Positions 604 through 38,812 of a stretch of DNA of 39,617 nt are shown piece by piece. Position 1 is the first letter of the stretch. Each line of letters begins with the position of its first letter. The stretch spans positions 1 to 39,617 of IMG/VR virus record IMGVR_UViG_3300033553_000826; one strand, 5' to 3'. The position numbers and the translations under genes were made by a program. Origin of the DNA: a virus. A model generated the notes under the pieces. That model was not told where the DNA came from. It made no database searches and saw only the letters and a list, made by a program, of their open reading frames with translations.

Positions 604-1407
604 CCGCCGCCCCACAGTTGCAGGGCCAGCGCGGCGGCCGAGGCCACGAGCCCCAGAACCGGCACCGTCATCGGCACCCGGAACGACGCCTGCGGCTGCT
701 CACGCTTCACCCCGATCAGGGCCGCGTTGACCAGCACGAATACCCCCAGCAGGATCGCCGAGGTCGCACCGGCCAGCGCCGCCACCGGCAGCGCCAGCGC
801 CCCCGCCAGCACCGCCGCGCCGACCAGCGCCGTGGCCAGCACCGGCGTGCCGAACCGGGGGTGGGCGTTGTGAAACACCCCAAGCGCGGCGCTGCGCCGG
901 CCCAGCCCGAACAGAACCCGGCTGGCCATGATGATCTGCGCCAGCACACCGTTGAGCGCCGCCGCCACCGCGATCAGCGCCAGCGGCGCCGCCGGCCCGC
1001 CGGTGGCGCGCGCCCATACCAGCGCCAGCGGCTGTTCGGACCCGGCCAGATCGTCCACCGGAACCGACCGCACGGCGGCCCAGGCCACCAGCCCATAGAG
1101 CGCAGCGGTGATGGCAAGCGACAGCAATATGGCGCGCGGCATGGTGCGTTCGGGGTGTTTGACCTCTTCGGCCATGTTGACCATGTCCTCGAACCCGATG
1201 AAGGCAAAGAAGGCCAGCGTCGCGCCGGCCCCGATGCCGGCCCAGGCGACGGCCTCGGGCATCTGCCAGTCGGCACTGGGCAGCGCCGTGCCGCCGGCCC
1301 AGATCACCAGCGCCAGGCCCGCCACCTCGATCACCGTGAACACCGCGGCGACGGCCAGGCTTTCCAGCACGCCGATCAGCGCCACGCCGATCAGCGCCAG
1401 TGTAGCG
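600..1407 (-). pseudogene. APC-family permease, 5' part removed by prophage insertion
   Basis: The frame reads from the phage junction at 1407 to TGA at 600-602. It encodes the C-terminal two thirds of an amino acid/polyamine permease of the APC superfamily, with about eight hydrophobic segments. The family motif FFAFIGFEDMVNMAEEVKHP is present, followed by PERTMPRAIL. No start with a ribosome site is visible; the frame stays open up to the phage end, and the N-terminal transmembrane helices are missing. The simplest reading is that the prophage landed inside the gene and the 5' portion lies beyond the other phage end, outside this window. The exact substrate cannot be told from sequence. Confidence 0.8.
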
Positions 1408-7711: not shown

Positions 7712-9247
7712 TTAGCTGGCCTGGGCAACATCGGCGACGAGTTCTTCGTAGTACTCGCCGTTGCGATGCGCGCGGAAGGTGAGGTGCTCGAGCGGTGCGG
7801 GTGGCTCGATGTCGAAGTCGAGATAGAGCTTGCCGGCCTTGAGCTGGGCCTCGGTGTTGAGCTCGGGGTCGAGCCAGACGCGCCCGCCAAGGATCGCGCC
7901 GAGCGCCTTGAGATGGCGCAGGTAGGCATCGACACCGTCGCGGATGTCGTTGATCAGCTGCCCCGAGAAGGGGCGGTCCATGGCCCACAGGTGCGCCTGC
8001 TCGACGCTCTCGTAGATCATGTCCGCGGTGCGGCGCACGCTCAGGAAGGCCCAGAGCGGATCGGCCGTGGTCGAGCGGTTGCCCCAGAGGCGGTAGCCGT
8101 CCTTGCGCACGATCGTCGCCACCTCGTTCTCGTTGAGGATGTTCGCGCGCGAGTTCGGATCGGACAGGCCGAAGGACACGGCCCGGGCGGTGCCGGTGAT
8201 GCCGTTGATCAGCTTGTTCGAGGGCGACCACCAGAAGCCGTTGTCGGCGTCGGTGCGCGCGATCACGCCCGCCACCCGCGCCGAAACCGGGGCCACGACC
8301 TCTTTGGCGGCCACCGTGTCGAACACCGTCACCCAGGGGTCGACGATATAGAGCCGATCGGAGCCGAACTCGCCGCGATACTCGATCGCCTCGGTGTCGG
8401 TGGTGTTCGGCCCGTCGGCGATGATGACCGCGCGCAGCCGCCCGGCGATGCCGATCATCTCGCTGACCACGCCGGTGTTCTGGGTGAAGCCCGGGGCGAT
8501 CAGGATGCGCGGCGAGACATGCACGATGCTCTCGGCCGCGGCGAGGGCTTGCAGGCCCTCGTAGTCGCCGGTCACGCCGTCGACGCCGCCGATGATGTTG
8601 GCCTGCGTCTCCGCGTCGTCGGCGCCCTCCTCGACCCGCACGACCACCACGACGGCACCGGCCTGGTCGAAGATCGCGTCGAGCGCGGCGGGCAGCGTGC
8701 CCAGGCCCTGGTCGGTCGCGTCGAGCTTGGCCGCCTCGCGCCGGCTGCCCGCGATGAGCACCGGCGTGTTGAGCGGAAAGGGCTCGGCGGCGCCATCCGC
8801 CAGCTTGGTTGCCGCCTTGGCGCGCACGACACCGGAGCCGTCGCTGGTGCCGGCATGTGCGACCGCCACCAGGGCAGCGGCATCGACATCGCCCTCGATC
8901 GCCGTCTTGACGTCGGCCGCGGTCGAGGTGATCGCGCCTTCGAGGTCGGTCGCCAGCGCCACCGAGATGGCGTTGCCATCCACGGTCACCGCGATCGCGG
9001 CGCTGATCGTGCCGGGGTCGGTGAACGCGACGGAAATCAGGTTGCCGTCGAGGCCGGCGGTCTGGGCGGTGAAGGTGAGCGCGGTATCCAGCGCGGTCGA
9101 GCCCAGGGTCAGGGTTGCCGCTGTGGCGCCGGCGGCGTCGGGCGCGGTGCCCACCACCCCGATCACCGAGGAGCGGACGGTACGGATCGGGCGCAGGCCG
9201 TCGTCAATTTGAACGACCTCCACCCCGTGAAGAAACTGCTCAGACAT
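7712..9247 (-). CDS. Tail sheath protein (P2 FI family) with inserted domain
   Basis: A 511-residue contractile sheath subunit. The N-terminus (EQFLHGVEVVQIDDGLRPIR, SVIGVVGTAPDA) and the C-terminal half (RSTTADPLWAFLSVRRTADM, HLKALGAILGGRVWLDPELN) are typical of P2 FI. P2-type sheaths usually pass straight from VGTAPDA into FPLNTPVLI; here about 114 residues (39-152) are inserted between them. The ATG at 9247 follows AAAGGAGGC in the coding strand, a strong ribosome site that restarts translation after the DGR module. Confidence 0.93.
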   Translation of the reverse strand: MSEQFLHGVEVVQIDDGLRPIRTVRSSVIGVVGTAPDAAGATAATLTLGSTALDTALTFTAQTAGLDGNLISVAFTDPGTISAAIAVTVDGNAISVALATDLEGAITSTAADVKTAIEGDVDAAALVAVAHAGTSDGSGVVRAKAATKLADGAAEPFPLNTPVLIAGSRREAAKLDATDQGLGTLPAALDAIFDQAGAVVVVVRVEEGADDAETQANIIGGVDGVTGDYEGLQALAAAESIVHVSPRILIAPGFTQNTGVVSEMIGIAGRLRAVIIADGPNTTDTEAIEYRGEFGSDRLYIVDPWVTVFDTVAAKEVVAPVSARVAGVIARTDADNGFWWSPSNKLINGITGTARAVSFGLSDPNSRANILNENEVATIVRKDGYRLWGNRSTTADPLWAFLSVRRTADMIYESVEQAHLWAMDRPFSGQLINDIRDGVDAYLRHLKALGAILGGRVWLDPELNTEAQLKAGKLYLDFDIEPPAPLEHLTFRAHRNGEYYEELVADVAQAS

Positions 9248-9298
9248 TGAAGCCTCCTTTAAAGAGCGTGTTCAGGGTTCGTGAAATCAGGCGGGAGC

Positions 9299-10390
9299 TC
9301 ATGCGCACTGCCTCCTTTCGGGCTCGTGGGGTGCCACCTCGCGTGGCGGCGGGACGAAGACCTGCCCGCTGACCACTCGGCGGCGCAGCGTGTAGGTCTG
9401 GGCATGGGCGGCATGGCCGACCCAGCTGGCGACGACGCGTTGCACGCGATCCATGTCGATCTGGCCCGCGTGATACTGTTGCGCCATGCGCTTCATCTTC
9501 TTGCGCATCCGGCCGACGCTGTCCCGGCGCAGAAGCCGGTGCGTGGGCCATATCCTGTAGCCGAGGAAATCCAGTGACCGACCGCCGGGGCGGACGGGAA
9601 AGACCTGCGTCTTGCCGTTGAGGCGCAGCGCCAGGTGCGCGTAAAGAAACCCGTCGATCTCGCGGCGCAGCTCATGCAGCCGGGCCTTGTCGGGATCCAC
9701 GACCGCGAAGTCATCCATGTAGCGCAGGTACCGCTGCACGCGCAGGTCGTTCTTCACGAAGCCGTCGAGCTCGTGGAGATAGATGTTGGCGAAAAGCTGC
9801 GAGGTCAGGCTGCCGATCGGGATGCCGCGCGGCAGCGGATCGCCGGGCTCGGCGGTGCTGTCGATGATGTCGTCGATCAGGCGCAACGTCGGTGCGCAGG
9901 CGATGCGGCGGCGCAGGAGGCGCTTGAGCGCATCGTGCGACACCGACGGGAAGTACTTGGCGATGTCGGCCTTGAGCACGTAGATGCAGCCCGCCTCGCG
10001 CTGGACGGCGCGCAGCATGGCCTGCACCCGGTCAGCGCCGGCATGGGCGCCCTTGCCGGGCCGGCAGGCATAGCTGTCATGGATGAAGCGGCGCTCCCAG
10101 ATGGGCTCGATCACCTCGATCAGGGCGTGCTGGACGATCCGATCCTTCAGCGGCAGAGCCGAGATCGCACGTTCCTTGGGTTCGAACACCTTGAAGTTCC
10201 GGTAAGGTCCTGTGGTGTAGGTGCCCGCCAGCAGGCTTTCCTGCAGCGCGATCAGGTTGGGCTCGAGATCGCGCTCGAAGCGCAGTACGTCCGCCTGGGC
10301 GCGCCGGCCGCGGATCACGCGGCCCCAGGCGCGATGCAGCGCCTCGAAATCCGCGATCCGCTCGAAGAGGTTGTTGTAGGTGCAGGCCAT
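9299..10390 (-). CDS. DGR reverse transcriptase
   Basis: A 363-residue group-II-intron-like reverse transcriptase of the diversity-generating retroelement clade. I chose the ATG at 10390 (MACTYNNLFERIADF) because CGGAGG precedes it. Visible motifs: KADIAKYFPSVSHDAL (catalytic Asp near 142), the DGR-type IPIGSLTSQLFANIYLHELD (residues 191-209) and the catalytic YMDD at 224-227. It has no maturase/X-domain or endonuclease extension. It acts with Avd to make adenine-mutagenised cDNA from the TR RNA. It lies 167 bp downstream of TR and directly upstream of the sheath gene. Confidence 0.96.
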   Translation of the reverse strand: MACTYNNLFERIADFEALHRAWGRVIRGRRAQADVLRFERDLEPNLIALQESLLAGTYTTGPYRNFKVFEPKERAISALPLKDRIVQHALIEVIEPIWERRFIHDSYACRPGKGAHAGADRVQAMLRAVQREAGCIYVLKADIAKYFPSVSHDALKRLLRRRIACAPTLRLIDDIIDSTAEPGDPLPRGIPIGSLTSQLFANIYLHELDGFVKNDLRVQRYLRYMDDFAVVDPDKARLHELRREIDGFLYAHLALRLNGKTQVFPVRPGGRSLDFLGYRIWPTHRLLRRDSVGRMRKKMKRMAQQYHAGQIDMDRVQRVVASWVGHAAHAQTYTLRRRVVSGQVFVPPPREVAPHEPERRQCA

Positions 10391-10557
10391 CACGCGGCCT
10401 CCGAGAGATTGGGGCGGCCGGCGCGAAGGGTCGCGCATGCGCTACTGTCCCGCCCCGGCCTGTTCATTTTTTCCGGCGCTTGGCCGAGGGATACGGGGCC
10501 TTTCGAGGGTGCGCTGGACGGCGCCCCGTGAGGCACCGCCTTCCGGCATTCCACGAG
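10391..10557 (-). ncRNA. Non-coding spacer of the DGR template RNA
   Basis: The 167 bp between TR and the RT start contain no convincing gene; the one ORF crossing it is only the translated TR. In studied DGRs the RNA downstream of TR folds and primes cDNA synthesis. Here the coding strand is GC-rich with complementary segments (for example CGGGGC near 10527 against GCCCCG near 10493), so a structured RNA is plausible. Boundaries are not determinable by eye. Confidence 0.5.
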
Positions 10558-10674
10558 AGCGGGCCGGAACCCGATGTTCGAGTTCGCGTTCGAACGCGGG
10601 TTGTTCAGGTTGAGGGCGAACACGCCGGCATTCACGCCGTTGTTCCAGTTGCCCCCACGGATCGGCAGACGTTC
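10558..10674 (-). repeat. DGR template repeat (TR), 117 bp
   Basis: This 117-bp segment pairs with VR1 (offset 557 bp) and with VR2 (offset 26,831 bp). It contains 24 adenines on the coding strand. Translated in the VR frame it gives GGNWNNGVNAGVFALNLNNP with ten asparagines, nine encoded by AAC, the typical DGR codon for maximum diversity. All mismatches to both VRs fall on its adenines. Its 5' end overlaps the last bases of the Avd gene, and its 3' end carries the GC-rich block GGGTTCCGGCCCGCT shared with both VRs. Confidence 0.97.
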
Positions 10675-11029
10675 AAGCCACATTGCCCGCACCCCTTTGC
10701 TTGAGGCTCCGGAACCAGCCGCCCACCATGCGCCCGAGCTCGTCGAGGTGACGACTCCAGACCTCGTACTTGCGGAACGGCAGATACTGCAGCTCACGCG
10801 ACAGCCGCACCTGGCTGCGCAGCAAGTCGAGATCCCCGTCGAGGTCCTGCATGGTGGTCTTCTTGTGGTAGCGGCGATTGCAGATGATGATCAGCCGCAG
10901 CACCCGCCACATGGTCTGGCGGATTTCCTGGCTCAGGACGTGACGCTCCGCCTTCGGGAACTGCCGCAGCGCGACATAGCCGTAGGCAATCATCTCTTCG
11001 CATTTGCGCCTGATCTTCAGATCATCCAC
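10673..11029 (-). CDS. avd: DGR accessory variability determinant (Avd)
   Basis: 118 residues, helical and strongly basic, matching the Avd/four-helix-bundle family that forms a pentamer and binds the RT and template RNA. Characteristic stretches are FPKAERHVLSQEIRQTMWRV and RSQVRLSRELQYLPFRKYEV. The start is GTG at 11029 with an AAGGAAAAGG stretch upstream. It lies between VR1 and TR, the usual DGR order (target, avd, TR, RT). Its TGA overlaps the start of TR by two bases. Confidence 0.93.
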   Translation of the reverse strand: MDDLKIRRKCEEMIAYGYVALRQFPKAERHVLSQEIRQTMWRVLRLIIICNRRYHKKTTMQDLDGDLDLLRSQVRLSRELQYLPFRKYEVWSRHLDELGRMVGGWFRSLKQRGAGNVA

Positions 11030-11056
11030 TGGTTCGGGCCTTTTCCTTGGTGTTAT

Positions 11057-11080
11057 CCGGGCGGGTTTTCACCCGCCCGG
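11057..11080 (-). other. Stem-loop downstream of VR1 (10-bp stem, GAAA loop)
   Basis: A perfect inverted repeat: CCGGGCGGGT and ACCCGCCCGG around four bases that read GAAA on the coding strand. It lies 34 bp past the end of VR1 and 22 bp past the target stop codon. In the Bordetella phage DGR a hairpin or cruciform with a short stem and 4-nt loop just after the VR is needed for efficient retrohoming. It could also act as a weak terminator, but there is no U-tract. Confidence 0.8.
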
Positions 11081-11102
11081 GCAGATTTCAGGTGGGCGGA
11101 TT

Positions 11103-12182
11103 TCAGATCGCGAAAGCGGGCCGGAACCCGATGCGCGAGTACGCGTACGAACGCGGGTAGTGCAGGACGAGGGCGAACACGCCGGCACCCACGCCGTCGC
11201 TCCAGTAGCCCCCACGGACCGGCAGACGTTCCCCCTCGTTGTTCATGTAGAAGCGCGCGCGCGTCATATCGACTGCATGCGGGAAGAGGCCCAGAACCTT
11301 GGCGATCTCGGGCACCGTTACGCCGGCCTCGGCCGTCAGGTCCTTGTACATCGCCTGCGCATAGTTCGAGCCGTCGGACTGGCTGGTGACGCTGGTGTTG
11401 AGGATCGGATCGCCGGCGCCGGCAGCGCCGGTCGCGTCCCATTTCAGCGTGTCGGTCGTGCCGGGCGCGACCAGCGAGCCGTCCTGGAGGATCGCCTGCC
11501 AGAGCGTGCTGGTGTCCGAGTGATCGGCGTCGGTGGCGGCGGCGTTGTTGTCGGCGATGATCTGAATTTCACCGCCCACCAGGCGCAAGCCCCGGACCCA
11601 CTCATGGACATTGCCGGTGAGGTCGGCGATGCCGGCCGGGCTGTTGTCGTGATACCAGCTTGCCGGGCCCGACCCGGTAAGTGTCCGCGCCACGCCCGAG
11701 TTGTCGCCCGGATCGCCGCCATCCTGGCGCCGGCCGGTCTCGTAGGTCTGGTCGTAGTCGCGGCCGTAGTCGGTGTTGCCGCGCGGCATGAAGCCGTTCT
11801 TCCAGCACCAGAGTGCCACGGCCGACCATTCGGCATTCGTCATCATGTGCCAGCCCGGCCCCTTGTCGGCGCAGCGCTGGTCGGCCGTGTCGAAGTTGAT
11901 GCTCGTCGCCGGGTCCTGGCCGGGCAGGGACAGCGCGCGATCGTCGTGGATCGTCGCCTGGAACTTGCCGACCATGATCTCGGACTTCTGCGCGCCGTCG
12001 ATCGTGAAGGCCGGATGCACGCCGGCGCCCAGTGCGGGGTCGATGTCCTCGATATTGAAGCGGGGCACGACGCACATGATCGAGGGGTAACCGCGATCGT
12101 CGTAGAGCACCGTGTTGACGCCGCCCGAGGCGGCCTCGACCGACTGCCGGAAAGCATCGGGGGCGGAAATGATGATGGACAT
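11103..12182 (-). CDS. DGR target protein 1 (C-type lectin / FGE-like fold)
   Basis: A 359-residue protein with the formylglycine-generating-enzyme-like C-type lectin fold used by many DGR targets. Seen in sequence: GWHMMTNAEWSAVALWCWKN, LTGNVHEWV, and a C-terminal variable region from GERLPVRGGYWSDGVGAGVF to IGFRPAFAI. The last ~39 residues are VR1. It follows two tail fibre genes and a small gene, so it is probably displayed at the fibre tips and binds host receptors. Enzyme activity is not expected; the fold is used as a binding scaffold. Confidence 0.93.
   Translation of the reverse strand: MSIIISAPDAFRQSVEAASGGVNTVLYDDRGYPSIMCVVPRFNIEDIDPALGAGVHPAFTIDGAQKSEIMVGKFQATIHDDRALSLPGQDPATSINFDTADQRCADKGPGWHMMTNAEWSAVALWCWKNGFMPRGNTDYGRDYDQTYETGRRQDGGDPGDNSGVARTLTGSGPASWYHDNSPAGIADLTGNVHEWVRGLRLVGGEIQIIADNNAAATDADHSDTSTLWQAILQDGSLVAPGTTDTLKWDATGAAGAGDPILNTSVTSQSDGSNYAQAMYKDLTAEAGVTVPEIAKVLGLFPHAVDMTRARFYMNNEGERLPVRGGYWSDGVGAGVFALVLHYPRSYAYSRIGFRPAFAI
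11115..11231 (-). repeat. DGR variable repeat 1 (VR1), 117 bp
   Basis: VR1 matches TR at 103 of 117 positions. The 14 differences correspond to TR plus-strand positions 10577, 10578, 10584, 10590, 10602, 10605, 10610, 10611, 10631, 10632, 10641, 10643, 10650 and 10662. All are T on the plus strand of TR, that is A on the coding strand. None of the 93 non-A positions has changed. Nine of the ten TR asparagines plus the third are all replaced (Y, S, D, G, V, H, Y, Y, Y, R), so every Asn codon has been altered. Confidence 0.97.
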
Positions 12183-12546: not shown

Positions 12547-13464
12547 TCACTGGTAGCGGGGGTTGAGAAGGGTCCAGCGGATGCGGATGTTGTCGGCCGA
12601 GCCGCTGGCCTTGATCTTGAAGCCGTTGCGCGCCTTGTCGTAGGCAGTCAGCGCGCCGACCCCGGCAAGATTGGTCGCGCCCTCGACCTCCAGCTCGACG
12701 CCGTAATCGGCCGCGGGCAGCGCCTCGGCGAAGGCGACGGAGACGAAGGGCGCAGCGTCGACCCACCATCCGCTTTGCGGGCGCACGACGCGCAGGTCGG
12801 TCAGCGTGACCGCCGACAGATCCCCGGCCGTGTCGTTCGCGGGCAGGTCGAGCCGGTAGAGCACCAGCCCGTCATCGGGCACCTGCTGGGCCACGCCGAC
12901 GCCGTAGCCGCCGGGGCCGTCATGCAGGAAGGCGTAGTAGGTCACCGCCTCGTCGGTCTCGTTGGTCGGCACCGAGACGTGGGTCGCCTCGTCTGCCAGC
13001 GTGATGGTCAGCCCGTCGATCCAGGCGCGCGACGATCCACTGCCCACAGTGCCGCTCTGCGACAAATCCAGCGCGCGGATCCCCGACTTGCTCAGCACCA
13101 TCCCCGAGATGACGTGCTTGTTCTTGAGCACCACCTCGCCCTGGGCGAGCACGCGGTTGCGGATCACGTCGATCTCGCGCGACAGGACGCCGGCCAGGCC
13201 GAGCGCCTCCTGCGTCGCGGCGATGATGGCCACCTGGTGCTCGGGCGCCAACGCCTGCAGCAGATCCAGCCGGGCGCCGAGCGACGCCTTGTCACCGCGT
13301 GCCTGCGCCACTTCGTCCGCGTACTGCTTGAGCCAGGCGGTCCGGTTGGCCAACTGTTTGGCCTGGACGTTATCAATCCCGTCCGGGCCGCCAACCACCG
13401 GGTCGGTGGTTTCGATCTGGTAGATGCCGCTCGGCCAGGAGGCGTTTTCGGGTAGGTTCGCCAT
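12547..13464 (-). CDS. Tail fibre protein
   Basis: 305 residues. The N-terminus (WPSGIYQIETTDPVVGGPDG, followed by AKQLANRTAWLKQYADE) is the tail fibre signature found in many Mu- and P2-like fibres, where it precedes a coiled-coil stem. A helical stretch (about residues 40-95) is followed by a beta-rich C-terminal part. It is short for a complete fibre, so the receptor-binding role is probably taken by the DGR target downstream. Confidence 0.8.
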   Translation of the reverse strand: MANLPENASWPSGIYQIETTDPVVGGPDGIDNVQAKQLANRTAWLKQYADEVAQARGDKASLGARLDLLQALAPEHQVAIIAATQEALGLAGVLSREIDVIRNRVLAQGEVVLKNKHVISGMVLSKSGIRALDLSQSGTVGSGSSRAWIDGLTITLADEATHVSVPTNETDEAVTYYAFLHDGPGGYGVGVAQQVPDDGLVLYRLDLPANDTAGDLSAVTLTDLRVVRPQSGWWVDAAPFVSVAFAEALPAADYGVELEVEGATNLAGVGALTAYDKARNGFKIKASGSADNIRIRWTLLNPRYQ

Positions 13465-17648: not shown

Positions 17649-18088
17649 CAGAAGTCCCGCATCTTGTCGCGCGAGAACAGCCGCTCGGGGCCGTGGCGCA
17701 CGACGGGCGTGGGCCCGTCGCCCTCGCCATCGCCGTCGGGGTCGGCCTCGAGCGAAGGCATGTGCAGCGCGGCCCGGCCATCGGCGATCCGCTTGAGGTG
17801 GTCGCGGCCGTCTTCGTAGCGCCGGCGATGTTCATCCGAGAGCACGTCGCGCGAAAGCGCCAGCCGGTAGAGCGCGAAGTCGACAGCGATCTGGCGCAGG
17901 ATGCCCGGCACCTCGGGAAGCGGCAGGCGGTAGCGCACGGCGAGGTAGCTGTCGATCTCGTCGCTGGCCTGCTCGAGCGCCCGGGCCACCGCGTCAGTCT
18001 CGACCGTGCCGTCGCCGTCGCGATCGGCCACGTAGAGCGCGTCGGCGCTGTAGAGGTCGGTGATGTCGCTCTGCGTGGCATAGGCCAT
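17648..18088 (-). CDS. Mu gp36-like (DUF1320) head-tail protein
   Basis: 146 residues of the Mu gp36 / DUF1320 family. The N-terminus MAYATQSDITDLYSADALYV and RALEQASDEIDSYLAVRYRL followed by PLPEVPGILRQIAVDFALYR are typical. The RDGDGT segment looks like a calcium-type loop. It probably serves as a head-tail connector component. It is separated by about 108 bp from the upstream gene, an unusually large gap in this otherwise overlapping cluster. Confidence 0.88.
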   Translation of the reverse strand: MAYATQSDITDLYSADALYVADRDGDGTVETDAVARALEQASDEIDSYLAVRYRLPLPEVPGILRQIAVDFALYRLALSRDVLSDEHRRRYEDGRDHLKRIADGRAALHMPSLEADPDGDGEGDGPTPVVRHGPERLFSRDKMRDF

Positions 18089-18118
18089 GTGTGAAACCTC
18101 TTCAAAACGGGCCTTTTA

Positions 18119-18175
18119 AGGTCCTGCCCAGGACCCGCCTTTCACTGCGGGGGGGGGGGTCGGCGACGCCCCCCC
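18119..18175. other. Intergenic structured region with G11 tract
   Basis: The gap before the gp36-like gene contains a run of 11 G (18149-18159), a C7 run (18169-18175) able to pair with it, and an inverted repeat GGTCCT/AGGACC at 18119-18134. No gene is seen. The G-run could vary in length. It could affect expression of the gene at 18088 or form a transcript hairpin; the lack of a T-tract argues against a simple terminator. Confidence 0.55.
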
Positions 18176-18196
18176 TCTCGGGTATTTCCTCGGCCG

Positions 18197-18616
18197 TCAG
18201 CCGGTCTCGCCGGGCGGCCGGAAGCCGCTCTGCGCCAGCCGGCGCATCGCTTCGTCGCGGGCCTCGTCGGTGATGAGCGCGTCGTCCATGCCTGGCAGGG
18301 CCGCACGCAGCGCCCGCATGCGCGGCTGGCCGTCCTGGGTGAAGTCCCCGGGCTCGAGCCCCGGGATCACCCGCACGAGCTCGTCGACCGGGCCGGGCGC
18401 CTCGTCCTCGACGAGGGTGTTCTCCTCGGCCTCGGCCACATCCTCGGGCGCCGCCTCGTCCAGCGGCTCGACCTTGACGGCCGGGTCGGCGCGCAGCCGC
18501 GCCCACTCGCGGGCGGTGAAGGCGCCGCGCTCGAACACCGCGCCCTTGTCGGTCAGCCGGACGCCGCAGCGCCAGATGTGCCCCGTGACGCCGGGGGCCG
18601 ATACACGCGCCGCCAT
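18197..18616 (-). CDS. Mu gp35 / FluMu-N-type protein, copy 2
   Basis: 139 residues from the ATG at 18616, which has GGAGGGAG upstream; an in-frame GTG at 18622 is an alternative. The N-terminal VRLTDKGAVFERGAFTAREW, followed by ARLRADPAVKVEP, matches the Mu-like 'FluMu N-terminal' domain. The middle is acidic and helix-poor, and the C-terminus (RRLAQSGFRPP) resembles that of its neighbour at 18619. The pair looks like an old tandem duplication. Its role may be a minor head or completion protein. Confidence 0.8.
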   Translation of the reverse strand: MAARVSAPGVTGHIWRCGVRLTDKGAVFERGAFTAREWARLRADPAVKVEPLDEAAPEDVAEAEENTLVEDEAPGPVDELVRVIPGLEPGDFTQDGQPRMRALRAALPGMDDALITDEARDEAMRRLAQSGFRPPGETG

Positions 18617-18618
18617 GA

Positions 18619-18990
18619 TCACGCTCCCTCCGGCGGCTCGAAGCCCTCGGCCTGCATGGCCTGGAAGACCTCGTCGCGGATCGCGGCGGTGATCAGAACA
18701 TCGTCCGCAAGGACGTCACGCAGCGCGGCGACCTTCGGCTTTCCGTCCTGCTGGTAGGCGGACGCGTCGAGGTCGGCGATGGCCTCCGCGATCGCGGCGC
18801 GCGCCTCCGCGTCCGCCCCCGGCGTGTCGTCCGGGGCCGGCGCGATCTTCAGGGAGGGCTCGGCGTGCAGCCGGGCCCATTGCGCCTCCGAAAAGGCGTT
18901 CGCGGCAACGCGGCGTCCCTCGCGCGGAAAGAAGGTCCCGCAGCGAAAGAAGCCGTCCGGCCGGGTGGAGCTGATCAGGTACATGCTCAT
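18619..18990 (-). CDS. Mu gp35 / FluMu-N-type protein, copy 1
   Basis: 123 residues. FRCGTFFPREGRRVAANAFS plus QWARLHAEPSLKI give the same domain as the gene at 18197, and the ends (VFQAMQAEGFEPPEGA versus MRRLAQSGFRPPGETG) align too. It directly follows the major head gene, which is where Mu gp35 lies. AAGGGGA precedes the ATG. Confidence 0.8.
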   Translation of the reverse strand: MSMYLISSTRPDGFFRCGTFFPREGRRVAANAFSEAQWARLHAEPSLKIAPAPDDTPGADAEARAAIAEAIADLDASAYQQDGKPKVAALRDVLADDVLITAAIRDEVFQAMQAEGFEPPEGA

Positions 18991-19001
18991 CGGCTATCCC
19001 C

Positions 19002-19928
19002 TTATGCTGCCAGCCAGGGGATGACCTTGACATCGACGGCCTTGTAGTTGGGGTTCGAGGCCCCGCCGTCGCCGAGCATCACCTCGACGGTCTTGTTCGC
19101 GGCCGAGCGCAGCGCGGGCGGCACGACCAGCAGGTTCGGCATGATGCCCAGCGGACGCCCGCCATCGGCGGTGAACTCCATCATCGCCTGCATTGCGGCG
19201 TCGAGGTTGTCGGAGTTCAGCGGCTGCCGCGAGGCATAGGCGCACTGCCAGAAGCCGTAGCCCACGTTGTGCCGCGCATAAACGCCGTACTGGAACTGGT
19301 TCGAGGTGAAGACCGCGTCCGAGGTGCGCGGGTCGGTCTTGGCCTCGAACTCGGGCCGCTTGCGCTCCTGGAAGATGAACGGCTTGAGCGGGCGCGAGGT
19401 GTCCAGCAAATACCAGGTGGTTCCGGGGCTGGTGCCCGGAACATCGTAATTCGAGACCGTCGCCGCGGTGCCCGTGCCGTCGTGGTTCGGGTAAACCGGG
19501 TGGTCGGTGTCGAAGAAGTACTGCCCGTCGTAGCACTCGTTGGCGTTGCCGTTCTTGATCAGCTCGGCGATCAGGATGTCGGGGTGGCGCGCCGCGGATT
19601 GCCCCATGGACTGGACCATCGGCGTGTAGATGCCGAGATTGTCGTCCTCGATCTGCGGGCGCTTCACGCCGACCGTGCTCTCCCATTCCTTGTTGAGGAC
19701 CTGGTAGCCGCTTTCCTTCATGTCCTTGATGACACGATCGCCGACCCACTCGCGCAGATCCGGGAAGTCCCCGAGCCAGCCATAGGTCTCGGAAGCGGTG
19801 GTGGACGGCACGATCGTCGCGACGTCGGTGTAGAAGGTCGTTGCCTTCATCGAGGCGTAGGCGTCCTCGAAGGTCTTCTTGAAGCCCGTGCGCAGGGCCT
19901 CCAGAAGCGATGCGGTGATGATGGCCAT
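19002..19928 (-). CDS. Major head subunit (Mu gpT family)
   Basis: 308 residues, the capsid shell protein of Mu-type heads. It starts MAIITASLLEALRTGFKKTF, and has ASETYGWLGDFPDLREWVGD, YDGQYFFDTDHPVYPNHDGT and the closing VVPPALRSAANKTVEVMLGD, all characteristic of gpT. It follows the protease/scaffold gene with a 3-bp gap. HK97-type fold is expected from family knowledge. Confidence 0.95.
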   Translation of the reverse strand: MAIITASLLEALRTGFKKTFEDAYASMKATTFYTDVATIVPSTTASETYGWLGDFPDLREWVGDRVIKDMKESGYQVLNKEWESTVGVKRPQIEDDNLGIYTPMVQSMGQSAARHPDILIAELIKNGNANECYDGQYFFDTDHPVYPNHDGTGTAATVSNYDVPGTSPGTTWYLLDTSRPLKPFIFQERKRPEFEAKTDPRTSDAVFTSNQFQYGVYARHNVGYGFWQCAYASRQPLNSDNLDAAMQAMMEFTADGGRPLGIMPNLLVVPPALRSAANKTVEVMLGDGGASNPNYKAVDVKVIPWLAA

Positions 19929-19931
19929 CGG

Positions 19932-20423
19932 TTACTGCTCCTCGCTTGCCTTCGCCTCGGCGAAGGTTTTCTGATCGATCCCCAGCTGGCGGCAGATGGC
20001 GATCTCTTCCTGGGTGAGTGTTCCGGCCTTGGTGCCCGGCGTCTTGTCGTCCAGGCCCGAGTTGCGCGCGATCACGGGCGCGGCCTCGATCATCTTCTCG
20101 AAGCGCTCCAGTCCGCCCTCGGCTTTGCAGGCCGCGAGGTGGAAGTCGCGGCTGGAGGGGGCGATCTTGCCGACCTCGATCGCCGCGTCGACTGCGGCGT
20201 TGATGGCCTCGTCGGTCCGCTCGGCTTCCACTTGCTCGAGCTCGCGGACGCGGTTCATGGCCAGGTCGTAGTCGCCCTTGGGCACGAACTTCTCGGGGTC
20301 CGGCGACTGCGCCCGGTTCAGCGCGGTCGTCTCGCGCTCCTTCAGCGCGTTGATCGCAACCACCGCATCGGCAGTCGTCGCGTCGGAATTGAGGCCCAGG
20401 GCCTCCAGGACAGCCTTGTCCAT
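19932..20423 (-). CDS. Internal scaffold protein (Mu gpZ-like) from in-frame start
   Basis: Inside the protease gene the codons before Met160 read AGAAGAGGAGACGACA then ATG, giving an AGAGGAG ribosome site 8 bases from an in-frame ATG at 20423. The product would be 163 residues starting MDKAVLEALGLNSDATTADA, rich in helix, Ala and Glu as expected for a scaffold. In Mu, gene Z is likewise nested in frame in the 3' half of gene I. Expression from this start is inferred, not proven. Confidence 0.72.
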   Translation of the reverse strand: MDKAVLEALGLNSDATTADAVVAINALKERETTALNRAQSPDPEKFVPKGDYDLAMNRVRELEQVEAERTDEAINAAVDAAIEVGKIAPSSRDFHLAACKAEGGLERFEKMIEAAPVIARNSGLDDKTPGTKAGTLTQEEIAICRQLGIDQKTFAEAKASEEQ

Positions 20424-20900
20424 TGTCGTCTCCTCTTCTTCGCGCACGCTGTTGAGTGCGGCAAGCTGCAAGTTCGGGCTGTTGGTGAGTGCGGCCGAGA
20501 CCATCTTCACGATCTCGCCCGCGGGCTTGGTGAATGCGAAGACGGGGCTGATGTAGCGATACCCGCGCGAGCTCAGCAGCGCGGCGCCGTCTTCCGTCCA
20601 GGTGACGCGCCCCCAGAGCGCGCCGTCGCGTGCCTCCATGTCGGAGATCCAGCCGACGGCTGGCGCGGGTTCGCCCTTCGCGCCCTTGATCTGGGTGGCG
20701 TGCTCGATATCGACGGGCAGCTCCGCGCCGTGCCGCTGGAAGGCCGCGACGACCTCCTCGGGACTGGGCAGCGTCCAGCGCCGACCGTCGCGCCCCTGGA
20801 TATCGGGGCCGGCCGGCGTGAGCTGTATCCACTCCGGGGCCGCGGCCCCTTCGAGGTTCAGCGCCACCGCCTGAATTTGTGTGTAATGCGTCCTTGCCAT
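19932..20900 (-). CDS. Head maturation protease (Mu gpI family)
   Basis: 322 residues, start at ATG 20900 (MARTHYTQIQAVALNLEGAA); a GTG at 20918 is possible. It processes the scaffold and head precursor in Mu-type heads. Family blocks are APEWIQLTPAGPDIQGRDGR, ELPVDIEHATQ (His 67) and LLSSRGYRYISPVFAFTK. The C-terminal half is helical and charged and doubles as the scaffold, see the internal start at 20423. A predicted activator box lies 31 bp upstream. Confidence 0.93.
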   Translation of the reverse strand: MARTHYTQIQAVALNLEGAAAPEWIQLTPAGPDIQGRDGRRWTLPSPEEVVAAFQRHGAELPVDIEHATQIKGAKGEPAPAVGWISDMEARDGALWGRVTWTEDGAALLSSRGYRYISPVFAFTKPAGEIVKMVSAALTNSPNLQLAALNSVREEEETTMDKAVLEALGLNSDATTADAVVAINALKERETTALNRAQSPDPEKFVPKGDYDLAMNRVRELEQVEAERTDEAINAAVDAAIEVGKIAPSSRDFHLAACKAEGGLERFEKMIEAAPVIARNSGLDDKTPGTKAGTLTQEEIAICRQLGIDQKTFAEAKASEEQ

Positions 20901-20931
20901 GCGGCCACATTCGCGCACGGAGCGGGGCGTA

Positions 20932-20954
20932 TCAGCCTTGAAGGAATTCAGGGG
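20932..20954 (-). promoter_or_regulatory. Activator box upstream of protease gene (PI-like)
   Basis: The plus strand reads TCAGCCTTGAAGG then AATTCAGGGG. It matches the box at 29046-29068 at 20 of 23 positions. The core is near-palindromic (CTTGAA...ATTCAG). It sits 31 bp before the protease ATG, the position of the Mu late promoter PI. Binding by the Mor/C-type activator is inferred. Confidence 0.65.
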
Positions 20955-21112
20955 CAGGAAATCGTGCCGGGGCCGGTTGCGTCAGAGCCGCTCAGCGCGC
21001 CGAGGAGCGCGGCCTTTCTCCTGAGGGTAGATGCTCCGGGAAAACCCGGCAAGGGTATTAAATGGGTATTTAACGGCGCGCTGCGGCGGTGCTGGGCGCC
21101 CCGGCCGCCAGA
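20955..21112. other. Intergenic region between gpF-like gene and protease
   Basis: The gap between the gpF-like gene and protease (212 bp in all) has no convincing gene. Besides the activator box it contains two close repeats, GGGTATTAAATGGGTATTTAA (split: GGGTATTAAAT at 21053-21063 and GGGTATTTAA at 21064-21073), an AT-rich island in otherwise high-GC DNA that may belong to a promoter. A small inverted repeat CCGGG/CCCGG flanks AAAA at about 21036-21049. Confidence 0.5.
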
Positions 21113-23537: not shown

Positions 23538-23545
23538 GGTCTCTC

Positions 23546-25624: not shown

Positions 25625-25923
25625 CAGGCTTCCTGCCAGTAGCCGTTGCGCAGCCAGCCGTGCCAACCGCAGTTCAGCTGACGCACCGAAGGCGCCAGCG
25701 TCGGCTCGGTAAGCGATCCGTTCCACGCCCAGGACGGCTCATGCGCCGGCTTGGCCCCCTTCCGGATGGAAACGCGGCACGGCCCTTCGCAGCCACAGGG
25801 GCAGAAGAACCACATGCCGACCGACCCATCGGGCTCCACTCTTGTCAGGTCGATGTGGACGCTTCCCGGCAACGCCAAACGGCGATGTTCCGCGCGATCG
25901 GCGATATGAATGGCGCGGATCAT
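25624..25923 (-). CDS. DUF6527-like small zinc-binding protein
   Basis: 99 residues from ATG 25923 (MIRAIHIADRAEHRRLALPG). The Cys-rich MWFFCPCGCEGPCRVSI block and the closing PTLAPSVRQLNCGWHGWLRN are, to my recollection, the DUF6527 pattern; the cysteines probably bind zinc. Members occur both in phages and in bacterial ubiquitin-like operons. The function here is unknown. Its end overlaps the terminase start. Confidence 0.7.
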   Translation of the reverse strand: MIRAIHIADRAEHRRLALPGSVHIDLTRVEPDGSVGMWFFCPCGCEGPCRVSIRKGAKPAHEPSWAWNGSLTEPTLAPSVRQLNCGWHGWLRNGYWQEA

Positions 25924-26308: not shown

Positions 26309-26324
26309 GATATGCCTCCTCCTG

Positions 26325-26861: not shown

Positions 26862-26864
26862 GGA

Positions 26865-28994: not shown

Positions 28995-29045
28995 GCGTGC
29001 CTCCGGGTTCTACGACCCGACAGTCGCATGCACCGGCACGGCAAT

Positions 29046-29068: not shown

Positions 29069-29119
29069 GAACGGTGTTTTGCGCGGCGCAAGGTGCTTCG
29101 CAAGGTTGCAGGCGCCGGC

Positions 29120-32010: not shown

Positions 32011-32336
32011 GCGACACCTCCGGCGATGTAGGCGTATTCGCCGCGGTTGTCGTCCCAGACCGCGCGCACCCGCTTCTCGCGCGGCGGGCGGGGGCCGGTG
32101 TCGCGCACCAGGCGGTAGACCGCCAGCCGCCCCTTGGGGCGCGCCTTGCGCTCGACACGCAGATACCCGGCATTGGCCAGCATCCGGCAGTAGTCGCGCG
32201 CAGCCCCCTCGGAGACCGGCACGCTGCTTGTGTTGGCGTGCATCGCCACGTCGCGGTAGGTGAAGGCCCCCAGCCCGCGGATGGCGCGCCACATGTTGCC
32301 CTGCGGCGTGGCGACCCTGGCGCGGTTGCGCGTCAT
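32007..32336 (-). CDS. Winged-helix hypothetical protein
   Basis: 109 residues from ATG 32336 (MTRNRARVATPQGNMWRAIR). The order FTYRDVAMHA, EGAARDYCRMLANAGYLRVE, RLAVYRLVRDTGP looks like a winged helix (recognition helix then wing). It sits directly after the MuB-like gene with a 4-bp overlap. Confidence 0.7.
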   Translation of the reverse strand: MTRNRARVATPQGNMWRAIRGLGAFTYRDVAMHANTSSVPVSEGAARDYCRMLANAGYLRVERKARPKGRLAVYRLVRDTGPRPPREKRVRAVWDDNRGEYAYIAGGVA

Positions 32337-33076
32337 GCCGAGATCCTCCGCGCGTCGGGCGTGATGCCGGTGAAAAAGTCGCGCCGCCCCCAGTCCTCGA
32401 GCGTCAGTCGATCGAGGTTGCGGGTGGCGGCGATCTCGCGGGCCAACTCGAGGTTCTCCACGATCCGCCGCGCCGAGCCGCCCGACGCCGTGCGCATCTT
32501 GGCCAGCAGCGCCGCGTCGATCTCGACCTCGGGGCAGCGGATGCGCCGCAGGAGATCGAAGTCGTCGTCGTCCGCGGGCTCGGCTGCGACCCAGCTCAGG
32601 ATGCGGCCGTGCACCCGCTCCCACTTGCGCAGCTTCTGCGGCAGGAGCTCCTCGCCGATCAGGATGACCGGCACGAAGGAGCTCTCGTAGATGTCGCGCA
32701 CGATCTCGATCATGCCCTTCTTGACCAGGAAGTCGGCCTCGTCGATCAGCAGCGGCACGCCATCACGCGCCAGCACCTCCGCGATCTGGTCGACCATGTC
32801 GCCGATGACCTTCGCGGGATGCACACCCAACTCGGCGAGGATCGCCTGGCAGAGCTTCTTCTGGGTCCAGACCGACTTGACCTGGACGACGCATGCCTGC
32901 TCCTCGTTGGCGACGTAGACGCTGGCGGTCGTCTTGCCCAGGCCCGAGGGGCCGTAGAAGCACCCCATCCCCGGCAGCCCGTGGCCGCGGTTCTCCAGTC
33001 GGCGCATAAGCGTCAGGAACGCAGTCACGTTCCGCATCGGCGCCAGTGTATTGTATAAGGCTCTTGTCTCTGCCAT
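32333..33076 (-). CDS. Transposition ATPase (MuB-type, AAA+)
   Basis: 247 residues; ATG 33076 is preceded by GAGGT. Walker A GPSGLGKTT (residues 42-50) and Walker B VPLLIDEADF (107-116) are clear. It lacks the extra N-terminal HTH of Mu B and is closer to the shorter B proteins of D3112/B3-like phages. It selects target DNA and activates the transposase. It follows the A gene with a 61-bp gap. Confidence 0.93.
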   Translation of the reverse strand: MAETRALYNTLAPMRNVTAFLTLMRRLENRGHGLPGMGCFYGPSGLGKTTASVYVANEEQACVVQVKSVWTQKKLCQAILAELGVHPAKVIGDMVDQIAEVLARDGVPLLIDEADFLVKKGMIEIVRDIYESSFVPVILIGEELLPQKLRKWERVHGRILSWVAAEPADDDDFDLLRRIRCPEVEIDAALLAKMRTASGGSARRIVENLELAREIAATRNLDRLTLEDWGRRDFFTGITPDARRISA

Positions 33077-33137
33077 GTTTACCTCGCTTGTGTTAAGCAT
33101 CGGCGCGGACGGGCTGGCGGGCCCGCCGCGCCACCTT

Positions 33138-35282
33138 TCACCCCAGCATGTCGGGATGTTTCCTCAGCACATCGCGTTGCGCGATGTACTCGGCCGTGGA
33201 TTGGTAGCTCGCCAGCCACGCGGCCTGCTCGTCTCCGATCTCCTCTCCGCGCCCCAGGCGCGCCTCCAGCTCGATCGCCGCCCGGAAGCGTGACCGCTCG
33301 GTCTCGGCGCGCGGGCGGGTCGCCTCGGCCTGCCGCCGCTTCGCCTCGAAATCCGCCACCACTGCCTCGTGCGCGGCGTCCTCCTCGGGGCTGCGCTCGC
33401 GCGGCTTGAGGGCGTTCGCCGGCGCGGGCTTGCGCTCGAAGGTCGGGCGGACGACCTGCGCCTCGACGGCCGGCGCCTCGCCGGTCGGCCGGGTCGCGTC
33501 CAGGTAGCCGCCGATCTCCGCGGCGCGCATCCGTTGCAGCGCATCGGCCGCGGCACGCTCCTTCTTGACGAAGTGGCGCTTGGCGGCGGCGTGGTTGCGC
33601 GCATCCTCCAGGTCGAAGAAGCCGCCCTTCTCGATGCACTCGGCATGGCCGAGATAGGCGCTGTCGAGACCGTAGAGATGCAGCCCGGCATGCAGGTCGG
33701 CCGGATCGAACCGCGCGACGACGCGGCGCCCGGCTACCTGGTGCATCCAGGGCGCCCAGTACTTGTTCTCCATGAACTTGATCTCGCCGTTGCGGCTATG
33801 CGCGTGCATGCCCTCTGCGCCCATCAGCCAGAGCCGGCGCTGCTCATCGGTCGCCTTGCGGATCGGCGCGGTCGCGTAGCTCTCGTCGAAGGTCTCCAGC
33901 AGGCTCCGGCCCTGCGTGGTCTGGCCGCGCCGCCCGGGGCGCGCGTTGTGCTCCTCGATCCCCTCGGCCAACACCGCGAGAAACTCCTCCAGCGGGATCG
34001 CGCGGTTGCCGTAATTCTCCGGTTTTGCATCCGGCCGATTGCCCGTATAGGCGCCGGCGAGACGTGGATCTTTGGCGATGTCGTCGCAGAAATCGCGGAA
34101 GGCGCGCTCGATCGGCTTCGACTGTCCGCTGTAAGGGGTGGCCCAATGGACCTCGCAGCCCAGCGTCTTGAGGATGCCGGGAATGTCGTCGTCCTTGACC
34201 TTGAAGCGGTAGCGCGTCGGCACCTGGCCGGTGAGGAACTTGTTGGCGAACTCGCGGCCGTTATCGAGAAGGATGTGCTCGGGGATGCCGAAGCGCTCGA
34301 TCATGTCGCCCAGCGCGAGGCTCACGCCCACCTTGTTCGGCGTCCGGTCGACGCGCCAGCTCACGATGCGCCCCGAATAAATGTCCTGGAACGCGACCAG
34401 CTGGGGCCGGACGATCTCCTCGCCGCCCGCCAGCCCCTCCGAGGGCCAGCGCACGAAGACGTCGAAGCGATGATAGTCCGCGTTGACCGCCTCCATCGCG
34501 TGCAGCGCGGTGCGGTCCCTGATCTGCGACGGGTAGAGCCGCTTGAGCGCCTCGACGCCCTGGCGGCAGAGCACGATCGTGGTTTCGGGAACCTCCGCAT
34601 CCAGCCGGCGGCGCATCGTGCGCTCGGGCAGTGTGGTCCAGCCCTCGGATTTCGCGATGCGCGCCGCGCGACGATAGCACGCCGAGAAGCTCGGCTGTTC
34701 AAGGCGCAGGTAATCGGCCTTGAGCACATCCCAGAACTCCGGGCTGCAACCGGCCGATGTTTCGCCGCGCACGGCGGCGCCATGGCGCGGCGCAAGGTGG
34801 GGCAGCCGGTCGTCGCTGCGCACGCCCTCGATCCGCCCCAGCCAGTTCCAGACCGTGCGCGCGCTGCATCCGAACTGGCGCGCCACCTGGTGGCAGGCCA
34901 GATCGCGGGTCATCCCGCCGCGCTCCAGCGCCTCGACGGTCTGTACTGCCTCCAGGGCGCGGTGCGCCTTGCGCTTCGTGCGCTCCGCCAGTCGGTCGAA
35001 GCGCGCCCAGAGGGCCTCGCGATCCACCGGCGCGGGCGCACCCGGGGGTGGCGCGGCTTGCGCCAGCAGCGCCTGCTGCGCCCGGCTCGGCAGCAGCGTC
35101 CAGTGATACTCCCATCCGCCGCCGCGGCTCTTGCGCCGCCGTGCCGCGCCCGGCGCCTGCCGCCAACCTAGCCGCTTGACGGTCAGCTCGACCCCCTGCC
35201 GGCTGGCCGGAAGGTCCGGCAGCGCGGCCTCGGCCAGCTCGGCGGCGGTCCACCATTCGCGATCCGGGCGGCGCTCACTCAT
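33138..35282 (-). CDS. DDE transposase (MuA-type)
   Basis: 714 residues. The N-terminus (REWWTAAELAEAALPDLPAS) is the Mu-type end/enhancer-binding winged helix, followed by an HTH at ACHQVARQFGCSARTVWNWL. The catalytic core shows VNADYHRFDVFVRW (Asp 269), ILLDNGREFANKF (Asp 340) and SGQSKPIERAFRDF (Glu 392), close to the D269-D336-E392 triad of MuA. A C-terminal basic domain follows (residues about 500-714), including a long charged helix. It acts on the end sites such as those at 1408-1451. Confidence 0.95.
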   Translation of the reverse strand: MSERRPDREWWTAAELAEAALPDLPASRQGVELTVKRLGWRQAPGAARRRKSRGGGWEYHWTLLPSRAQQALLAQAAPPPGAPAPVDREALWARFDRLAERTKRKAHRALEAVQTVEALERGGMTRDLACHQVARQFGCSARTVWNWLGRIEGVRSDDRLPHLAPRHGAAVRGETSAGCSPEFWDVLKADYLRLEQPSFSACYRRAARIAKSEGWTTLPERTMRRRLDAEVPETTIVLCRQGVEALKRLYPSQIRDRTALHAMEAVNADYHRFDVFVRWPSEGLAGGEEIVRPQLVAFQDIYSGRIVSWRVDRTPNKVGVSLALGDMIERFGIPEHILLDNGREFANKFLTGQVPTRYRFKVKDDDIPGILKTLGCEVHWATPYSGQSKPIERAFRDFCDDIAKDPRLAGAYTGNRPDAKPENYGNRAIPLEEFLAVLAEGIEEHNARPGRRGQTTQGRSLLETFDESYATAPIRKATDEQRRLWLMGAEGMHAHSRNGEIKFMENKYWAPWMHQVAGRRVVARFDPADLHAGLHLYGLDSAYLGHAECIEKGGFFDLEDARNHAAAKRHFVKKERAAADALQRMRAAEIGGYLDATRPTGEAPAVEAQVVRPTFERKPAPANALKPRERSPEEDAAHEAVVADFEAKRRQAEATRPRAETERSRFRAAIELEARLGRGEEIGDEQAAWLASYQSTAEYIAQRDVLRKHPDMLG

Positions 35283-37339: not shown

Positions 37340-37359
37340 CCTGCCGGCGGACCGGCAGG
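37340..37359 (-). other. Stem-loop downstream of VR2 (8-bp stem, 4-nt loop)
   Basis: CCTGCCGG and CCGGCAGG around four bases (TCCG on the coding strand). It lies 29 bp past the end of VR2 and 17 bp after the target stop. Same placement as the hairpin after VR1, but with a different stem and loop sequence, so the structure rather than the sequence is shared. Confidence 0.78.
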
Positions 37360-37376: not shown

Positions 37377-38534
37377 TCAGAATGCGAAAGCGGGCCGGAA
37401 CCCGATGATCGAGAGCGCGACCGAACGCGGGTTGTTCAGGCTGAGGGCGAACACGCCGGCATTCACGCCGTGGAGCCAGTGGCCCCCACTCAGGGCGATG
37501 GTGACGCGCCCCGACCAGTGCCCCCAGGCCCGATCAGGGATGACCGCGGCCTCCTTGTCCGCCACAACCTCCGAGGGCAGGAAGAGCGGCGACAGATCGA
37601 AGCCGGAGCCGCGCTCGTCGTGGAAGTCGACCGGATAGCCGTCCTTCTCGCCGGGGCCGTAATGCACGCCGGTCGCGACCCAGTCGTCGCCGCCCGGCAC
37701 GTCGGCGCTCCACAACACGATCTCGCCATCCTCGGCCAGCTGCAGCCCGTCGACGAACTGCCAGACATTGCCCCACAGATCGTGGATGCCGCGCCAGACG
37801 GCCGAGGTCTCGCCGGTGGGCTTGACCCCGCCGCCGTCGACATTGCCGCGCCCCAGCGCGCCCTGCATGTCCGTCCCGCCGATCTCGATCAGCATCAGAA
37901 GCTGGATTGCCGCCAGGTCGTAGATCGAATAGAGCCGCCAGCCCTGACCCAGCGCCGCGCAGTGCTCGCGCGCGTCACCGATCGTTACCCCGGTCCAGGG
38001 CTTGTTGCCCGCCTCGCCGACGATGCGACCCTCACGCTCCGAAGCCGGATACTTGCCGACGCGCAGCGCTGCGCAGGCAGTTCCATCGGGGCGCAGGAAG
38101 GCCGGGTGCAGGCGGTAGCCGGGGCGCGCGCAGGGCGAGACCAGCCAGAGCCGCTCGTCGCCGCGCCGCTCGCTGCGCACCCAGAAGCGCGGGATTTCCA
38201 CGGTGACCACGTCCACATTTGTCGGCACGTCGCGGATGCCCGCCCAGACCGGGTGCGTGTCGAAATACGTCCGCTCATGGTGAAGCGTGCGGCCCGCCGC
38301 ATCCACGCGCCGCCAGGCGCCGTTCTTGTGCAGGGCAATGCCGACGACATCACCCTCCGCGCCGATCGTGCCGCGGTATTCCACCGCCTCGATCGCGCCA
38401 TCGGAGCCGTACGGCCCCTGCACGAAATCCCACAACGCGCGCGCCTGCCCCAGCGCCTCGGCTGGCTGCAGTCCGGCGTCGAGGGCGCGATTGACCAGGT
38501 ATAGCCGGGTCTCCATTGCGTCATTCATCTGCAT
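37377..38534 (-). CDS. DGR target protein 2 (C-type lectin / FGE-like fold), early region
   Basis: 385 residues from ATG 38534; AAGGAG lies 6 bases upstream, so I prefer it to ATG 38570. The N-terminal ~50 residues are helical (NRALDAGLQPAEALGQARAL), with no signal peptide. The rest is an FGE-like C-type lectin fold: GWRLYSIYDLAAIQLLMLIE, GIHDLWGNVWQFVDG, and the variable end from ALSGGHWLHGVNAGVFALSL to IGFRPAFAF. The last ~37 residues are VR2. It lies just after the Ner-like gene, away from all virion genes. Whether it is virion-associated or acts in the cell is open. Confidence 0.92.
   Translation of the reverse strand: MQMNDAMETRLYLVNRALDAGLQPAEALGQARALWDFVQGPYGSDGAIEAVEYRGTIGAEGDVVGIALHKNGAWRRVDAAGRTLHHERTYFDTHPVWAGIRDVPTNVDVVTVEIPRFWVRSERRGDERLWLVSPCARPGYRLHPAFLRPDGTACAALRVGKYPASEREGRIVGEAGNKPWTGVTIGDAREHCAALGQGWRLYSIYDLAAIQLLMLIEIGGTDMQGALGRGNVDGGGVKPTGETSAVWRGIHDLWGNVWQFVDGLQLAEDGEIVLWSADVPGGDDWVATGVHYGPGEKDGYPVDFHDERGSGFDLSPLFLPSEVVADKEAAVIPDRAWGHWSGRVTIALSGGHWLHGVNAGVFALSLNNPRSVALSIIGFRPAFAF
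37389..37489 (-). repeat. DGR variable repeat 2 (VR2), 101 bp
   Basis: VR2 matches TR over 101 bp (TR 10558-10658) with 10 mismatches, at TR positions 10577, 10583, 10584, 10589, 10590, 10610, 10641, 10643, 10644 and 10650. Each is an adenine in the TR coding strand. The other 80 non-A positions are unchanged. Beyond 37489 the similarity stops abruptly, 16 bp short of the VR1 end. About 20 bp after its 3' end are also shared with VR1 (GCGGATTTCAGA and GCGAAA). Confidence 0.96.
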
Positions 38535-38566: not shown

Positions 38567-38812
38567 TCATGCGGCGTCCTCCGATTTGCCGGAGGGGCGC
38601 GGTATGTCGGCGGGCCACTCAAGATCGCAGGGCCAATTGCTCGAGAACCAATGAAGCGCGCGCTGGTATGTTTTGACGGTGCACCCCTTGCCGGAGCGCA
38701 GCCGACTGAACAGCCGCGCGTGTCCAGCGATATGGTTGGAGATCGTCGCCTCACTGCGCCGAACGTGTGAGCCGTAAGCCTCCGCCAAGGCTATGAGGTG
38801 TAGGTTGTCCAT
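38567..38812 (-). CDS. Ner-like early regulator
   Basis: 81 residues, MDNLHLIALAEAYGSHVRRS. The stretch EATISNHIAGHARLFSRLRS and KTYQRALHWFSSNWP reads like an HTH with the pattern of small phage regulators. It is the first gene transcribed away from the repressor, the place of Mu ner, which shuts off early transcription. Sequence similarity to Mu Ner itself is not evident; the call rests on position and HTH. Confidence 0.7.
   Translation of the reverse strand: MDNLHLIALAEAYGSHVRRSEATISNHIAGHARLFSRLRSGKGCTVKTYQRALHWFSSNWPCDLEWPADIPRPSGKSEDAA

Follow-up and report, generated by a model that had tools for sequence, protein, structure and literature searches.

The stretch of DNA analysed here (hereafter the window) is the IMG/VR virus record IMGVR_UViG_3300033553_000826, of 39,617 nucleotides, which carries a diversity-generating retroelement (DGR) within a Mu-type prophage. 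The DGR cassette lies on the minus strand in the order target 1, Avd, template repeat (TR) and reverse transcriptase (RT) (Table 1), and the coordinates bear out a first-pass annotation of the window that had proposed this canonical order together with a 117-bp pair of TR and variable repeat (VR1). The RT frame, whose possible breakage had been raised as a refuting outcome, is open and intact, with both expected motifs, and a database search showed that the RT can be aligned to its counterparts in phage DGRs, including those in BPP-1 and VHML, with 41–51% identity to the RTs of DGR-bearing phages (BPP-1, VHML-type and Mu-like). Avd scored above the DivGenRetAVD cut-off, and target 1 is a homolog of TaqVP along its full length. 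The TR and VR1 differ by 14 mismatches over 117 bp, all at TR adenines (seven to G, five to T and two to C), meaning that 14/24 adenines versus 0/93 other positions are changed (Fisher p = 4e-12) and that all ten asparagine codons of the TR are altered in VR1; the earlier counts of mismatches and spared positions are exact.

An adenine-tolerant scan of the window identified a second variable repeat (VR2) 26 kb from the cassette, at the end of an early-operon gene referred to here as target 2. VR2 is not homologous to TR positions 1-16, and over the remainder of the TR its changes are likewise confined to adenines (p = 2e-8). The first-pass account of a single target therefore stands for VR1 and was incomplete in omitting VR2. 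A lectin fold was found for both targets, from the TaqVP homology of target 1 and a structural model of target 2, and it is very probable that the element is a two-target DGR in a Mu-type prophage with a P2-like tail.

Table 1. Features of the window (positions in the window unless a contig is named)
Feature	Position	Strand	Evidence or remark
Target 1, C-type-lectin variable protein, 359 aa	11103..12182	-	phrog_2889 E 1e-146; TaqVP 5VF4 E 1e-104, full length
Avd accessory protein, 118 aa	10673..11029	-	Pfam bAvd E 1e-28; NCBIfam DivGenRetAVD E 1e-35
TR, 117 bp	10558..10674	-	position 118 (10557) is a C/T difference from the VRs
DGR RT, 379 aa	9299..10438	-	RVT_1 E 4e-19; IGSLTSQ and YMDD motifs
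VR1	11115..11231	-	14 A changes, 0 non-A
Hairpin downstream of VR1	11057..11080	-	10-bp GC stem, GAAA loop; consensus from PMC3240598
VR2 (TR positions 17-117)	37389..37489	-	10/21 A changed, 0/80 non-A
Hairpin downstream of VR2	37340..37359	-	8-bp GC stem, TCCG loop
Target 2, early-operon C-type-lectin variable protein, 385 aa	37377..38534	-	VR2 at 3' end; profile and fold matches
Small first early gene, 81 aa, upstream of target 2	38567..38812	-	phrog_7669, unknown function
Tail-fibre gene upstream of DGR	12547..13464	-	phrog_3100 tail fiber E 3e-22, over N-terminus
Tail sheath gene downstream of DGR	7712..9247	-	Phage_sheath_1 E 2e-23
MuB-like ATPase	32333..33100	-	AAA_22 E 4e-14; adjoins MuA
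MuA transposase	33138..35282	-	DDE_2 E 3e-48
5-bp target duplication GCCAG	1396..1400		second copy C79:40532-40536

The trio of TR, VR1 and VR2 is kept in seven phages, namely the window phage, a metagenome phage (3300039191, two contigs overlapping by 127 identical bases), a prophage of Antarctobacter heliothermus DSM 11445, and phages of Pseudoruegeria aquimaris CECT 7680, IMG/VR 3300010220_000129, an Actibacterium metagenome-assembled genome (MAG) and 3300038336; in the Actibacterium and 3300038336 assemblies VR2 and the cassette are on separate contigs and are presumed to be linked. Over nine phages, VR1 is changed at 110/210 adenines versus 7/843 other positions, and over the seven phages the corresponding values for VR2 are 79/150 versus 2/557. 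At the 16 non-A sites that vary among the TRs of these phages, VR2 always matches the TR of its own phage and VR1 does so in all but one case. Each VR follows its own TR in this way, and both are continually overwritten by the TR.

Comparison of the Antarctobacter prophage with the 3300039191 phage provides a natural counterpart of the population test that the first-pass annotation had proposed. Their TRs are identical and only 63 of 27,149 aligned positions differ (99.8% identity), yet 26 of the 63 differences (14 in VR1 and 12 in VR2) are in the two VRs, which make up 0.8% of the length. The VRs thus differ at 11.9% of positions versus 0.14% elsewhere (p = 2e-38), and 24 of the 26 VR differences are at TR adenines. 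In VR2, 12 A sites and no non-A sites differ, whereas the 300 bp upstream are identical. This concentration of differences in two near-identical phages indicates that both targets are rewritten in nature and that the DGR has, to judge from these sequences, been recently active in this phage family. The Antarctobacter prophage (L161/L162, C66 near 59500) has no equivalent of window positions 17971-30009, which hold head, packaging and lysis genes, and retains the tail, the DGR and both targets; it is possibly a tail-only, tailocin-like remnant.

The surroundings of the repeats are also those of a phage DGR. At the level of sequence, the 3' end of each VR is conserved and differs from the TR copy just past the 117 bp, where position 118 is C in the TR and T in VR1 and VR2. 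As this difference was found again in the related TR/VR pairs examined, with the exception of a DGR on contig C98 described below, it looks like the distinction between IMH* and IMH (initiation of mutagenic homing) known from BPP-1. A GC-rich hairpin with a 4-nt loop is present 3' of each VR and none is present 3' of the TR; a perfect stem of at least 8 bp occurs in ~2.8% of 110-nt stretches of the window. In BPP-1 a hairpin of this kind, together with the IMH, directs homing (Guo et al., PMC3240598), and phage DGR hairpins are defined by a GC stem and a 4-nt GRNA loop, 4–34 bp downstream of the VR. The VR1 hairpin has all of these properties, and the VR2 hairpin has the stem and the loop size; in genome G006 the loop of the VR2 hairpin is GAGA.

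Target 2 starts at an ATG (38534) preceded by AAGGAG. It comes second in the early operon, which places it between the repressor and MuA. Its neighbours in the window phage and in the Antarctobacter and 3300039191 phages are the first early gene on one side and a ParB-like gene plus MuA on the other, whereas G004-type phages have it downstream of MuA and MuB, flanked by DUF3164 and GemA. In addition, two Neomegalonema prophages have a 48% identical target-2 homolog between MuB and GemA, and a search of the Neomegalonema genome for this DGR RT gave no match. From these three arrangements, one of them without this RT, target 2 represents an early-operon gene family of transposable phages that is DGR-controlled in some of them. 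Both Neomegalonema prophages (L089 and L170) are Mu-like and come from the same MAG. The frame of an S24-type repressor gene beside target 2 (~38920-39617, plus strand) is interrupted past its helix-turn-helix part by a TAA near 39033, which may be a real lesion or an assembly error; a homolog in L066 (1705-1031) is open.

A structural model of target 2 had a predicted local distance difference test score (pLDDT) of 85 and a predicted template modelling score (pTM) of 0.81 when built from an alignment of 68 sequences, versus a pLDDT of 34 with four sequences. In it, a helical hairpin (residues 4-39) is followed by a linker predicted with low confidence and by a lectin body whose nearest fold is TaqVP, with TvpA and Mtd next, and which also resembles many phage fibre ends. 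At the sequence level, target 2 matches TaqVP chiefly over the VR, and a Pfam search with the target-2 N-terminus gave no family.

The DGR sits inside a complete-length Mu-type prophage, as established by the 5-bp target duplication, the phage ends (TGTA...CACA, of the TG/CA type) and the joined flanks, which as an empty site restore an intact 396-residue amino-acid permease ORF. The prophage is 39,129 bp long and extends from window position 1401 to C79:40531, 912 bp beyond the window. Along with MuA and the MuB-like ATPase it has Mu head genes (portal, F and I protease), and its tail module has the P2-type order of baseplate, fibre, sheath FI, tube FII, tape measure and GPD hub. The first-pass claims of a Mu-type prophage with a P2-like tail, and of a DGR flanked by fibre and sheath genes, were accordingly confirmed. 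MuA is 49–52% identical to its closest counterparts in named phages, those of Rhodobacteraceae Mu-like phages, and the prophage in Antarctobacter heliothermus is a close relative. The host family was searched through 198 genomes, each from a different genus, and this genome, a draft of 98 contigs that is 88% complete, was the only one with a match to the RT at E <= 1e-60 or to target 2 at E <= 1e-20; the element is therefore rare in the family.

A second complete DGR, with its own Avd, TR and VR, is present in the same genome (G000 C98:20000-39000, L005; about 9267-12068, minus strand). Its RT is 64% identical to that of the window, its TR and VR have 11 mismatches, all at A, and its neighbours are a DarB-like antirestriction gene, an endolysin gene and a minor tail gene. 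As the genome has only one MuA, the C98 DGR lies in another kind of prophage. Cross-talk between the two DGRs was considered and rejected since their TRs differ at 18 non-A positions, and it is also contradicted by each VR fitting its own TR.

By analogy with BPP-1, the RT and Avd would make cDNA from TR RNA, miscopying adenines, and VRs that bear an IMH and a downstream hairpin would be replaced by this cDNA. VR1 would thereby vary a tail-tip protein encoded beside the cassette, with a presumed role in receptor binding as in BPP-1, and VR2 would vary a second C-type-lectin protein encoded in the early operon. We tentatively favour, at somewhat less than even confidence, a function of target 2 inside the cell early in infection, where it would bind variable host factors, over one at the virion tip. 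This is because target 2 is an early-operon gene in three arrangements (two in DGR-bearing phages, the third lacking the RT), no signal peptide was seen in it when judged by eye, and an unrelated phage, Faecalibacterium phage Lagaffe, has a remote VR2 in its early region. A broader proposal, which we regard as speculative and rather doubtful, is that in transposable phages one DGR diversifies two proteins, the tip that binds the receptor and a lectin-fold protein that is made early, acts inside the cell and recognises host factors that vary, such as defence proteins. A second target in the early region would have emerged in two or more groups of phages that are unrelated.

Several observations weigh against the picture of an active DGR with an early intracellular target. 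The likeness of the target 2 fold to DGR variable proteins and phage fibre ends favours a virion role, the TCCG loop of the VR2 hairpin departs from the GRNA consensus, and the evidence of activity comes from comparisons between phages of the family and not from reads of the window strain. Furthermore, no full-length target 2 was found in G005 and G018, which have MuA and this RT type (G005 has VR1 only), and the RT of the Pseudoruegeria aquimaris phage (L163, C14:1348-2448, minus strand) has one internal stop, TGA. Because of that stop, the Pseudoruegeria VRs may be frozen; IMG/VR record 2890612611 has identical VRs.

Target 2 might instead belong to the virion as another receptor-binding protein, an alternative tail tip whose gene lies in the early region by chance. 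Besides its fold, this is suggested by the match of target 2 to phrog_5302 'tail protein' (E 2e-34) and by known two-target DGRs with presumed receptor-binding roles (PMC10743442). The PHROG match is, however, confined to the lectin part (residues 110-380), the N-terminal helical hairpin is no recognised virion-attachment domain, and in none of its three arrangements does the gene adjoin tail genes, so that we consider a virion role unlikely, albeit deserving of weight. A function in the lysogen, either in superinfection exclusion or as a surface-displayed conversion protein, seems improbable. The phage is temperate and variable lectins can be displayed on cells, as with TvpA of Treponema, but target 2 has no visible signal peptide and, as an early-operon gene downstream of the repressor and first early gene, would be expected to be off in a lysogen.

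The remaining alternatives concern VR2 itself. The departure of its hairpin loop from the consensus and its lack of homology to the start of the TR could mean that VR2 is a relic, a formerly targeted copy whose diversification has ended. Such a history is very hard to reconcile with the adenine-only VR2 differences between the Antarctobacter and 3300039191 phages, both of which share the TCCG hairpin, and is contradicted for the family by VR2 following its own TR in 7/7 phages. The two targets are distant homologs (~30% identity over the lectin part), as would be expected from tandem or dispersed gene duplication, but duplication would have altered non-A sites too, all of which are spared in both VRs of the window (p = 4e-12 for VR1 and 2e-8 for VR2, from this one phage), and an assembly chimera would not account for an arrangement that recurs in independent genomes. 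Simple duplication, a chance repeat and a chimera were rejected on these grounds, their combined probability being negligible.

The hint in the first-pass annotation that this setting might be without precedent did not hold, since DGRs have been published in the Mu-type phages hankyphage (PMC6199706), YPCBV-1 (PMC9769972) and Mushu (PMC11792537), the records of BalMu-1 and ZX4290 also contain one, and VHML has the same order of fibre, DGR and sheath. What stands out as unusual is the second, remote target in the early operon. Phage DGRs are usually read as receptor-switching tools; a remote early-operon target of the same TR, with a counterpart similarly placed in a phage of another group, points to a DGR that also diversifies a factor needed early in infection. 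Remote targets may be widely missed, as the largest DGR survey (Roux et al.) would by its own statement not detect them (PMC8144416). The question of target 2 is directly testable in the named isolates Antarctobacter heliothermus DSM 11445 and Pseudoruegeria aquimaris CECT 7680.

Among known systems, VHML (NC_004456) resembles the window in its P2-like tail and in the order fibre, target, TR, RT, sheath FI and tube FII, but it is a plasmid-like telomere phage and not transposable. The Bacteroides hankyphage was compared by its published description, according to which it transposes like Mu, with 5-bp repeats, and the repeats of its DGR are 117 bp long with 14 A mismatches; unlike the window, it has one adjacent repeat pair in the portions available (PMC6199706). 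YPCBV-1, BalMu-1 and vB-Vv-ZX4290 combine MuA, MuB and a DGR in one phage, with the DGR late in the genome, after baseplate or tail-tip genes. An adenine-tolerant scan, used for the named phages where plain self-BLAST gave no TR/VR pairs, identified only a single VR in ZX4290, YPCBV-1, BalMu-1 and VHML. ACA1 and ACA2 represent another P2-like DGR case (PMC10612066). The Thermus aquaticus prophage protein TaqVP (5VF4) is homologous to target 1 along its whole length and, among solved structures, has the fold nearest to that of target 2, whereas the accessible part of its report describes one target (PMC6328139).

Two-target phage DGRs have also been reported (PMC10743442, PMC11792537). The Tentaclin phages nd4 and nd12 use one TR for two lectin-fold targets, although both targets are inside the cassette and one is a lectin plus Ig protein (PMC10743442). 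Lagaffe and its relatives likewise have one TR and two VRs, and the available text of the paper gives the two VRs with no discussion of the position of VR2 (PMC11792537). Lagaffe is not Mu-type, its RT is 37% identical to that of the window and its VR2 is inside a gene with a C-terminal extension. That gene (MG711461, L174; 31798-33060) adjoins exonuclease, Gam, ERF and SSB genes. It encodes an FGE domain and belongs to the early/replication region of Lagaffe, with VR2 and the TR 9.6 kb apart.

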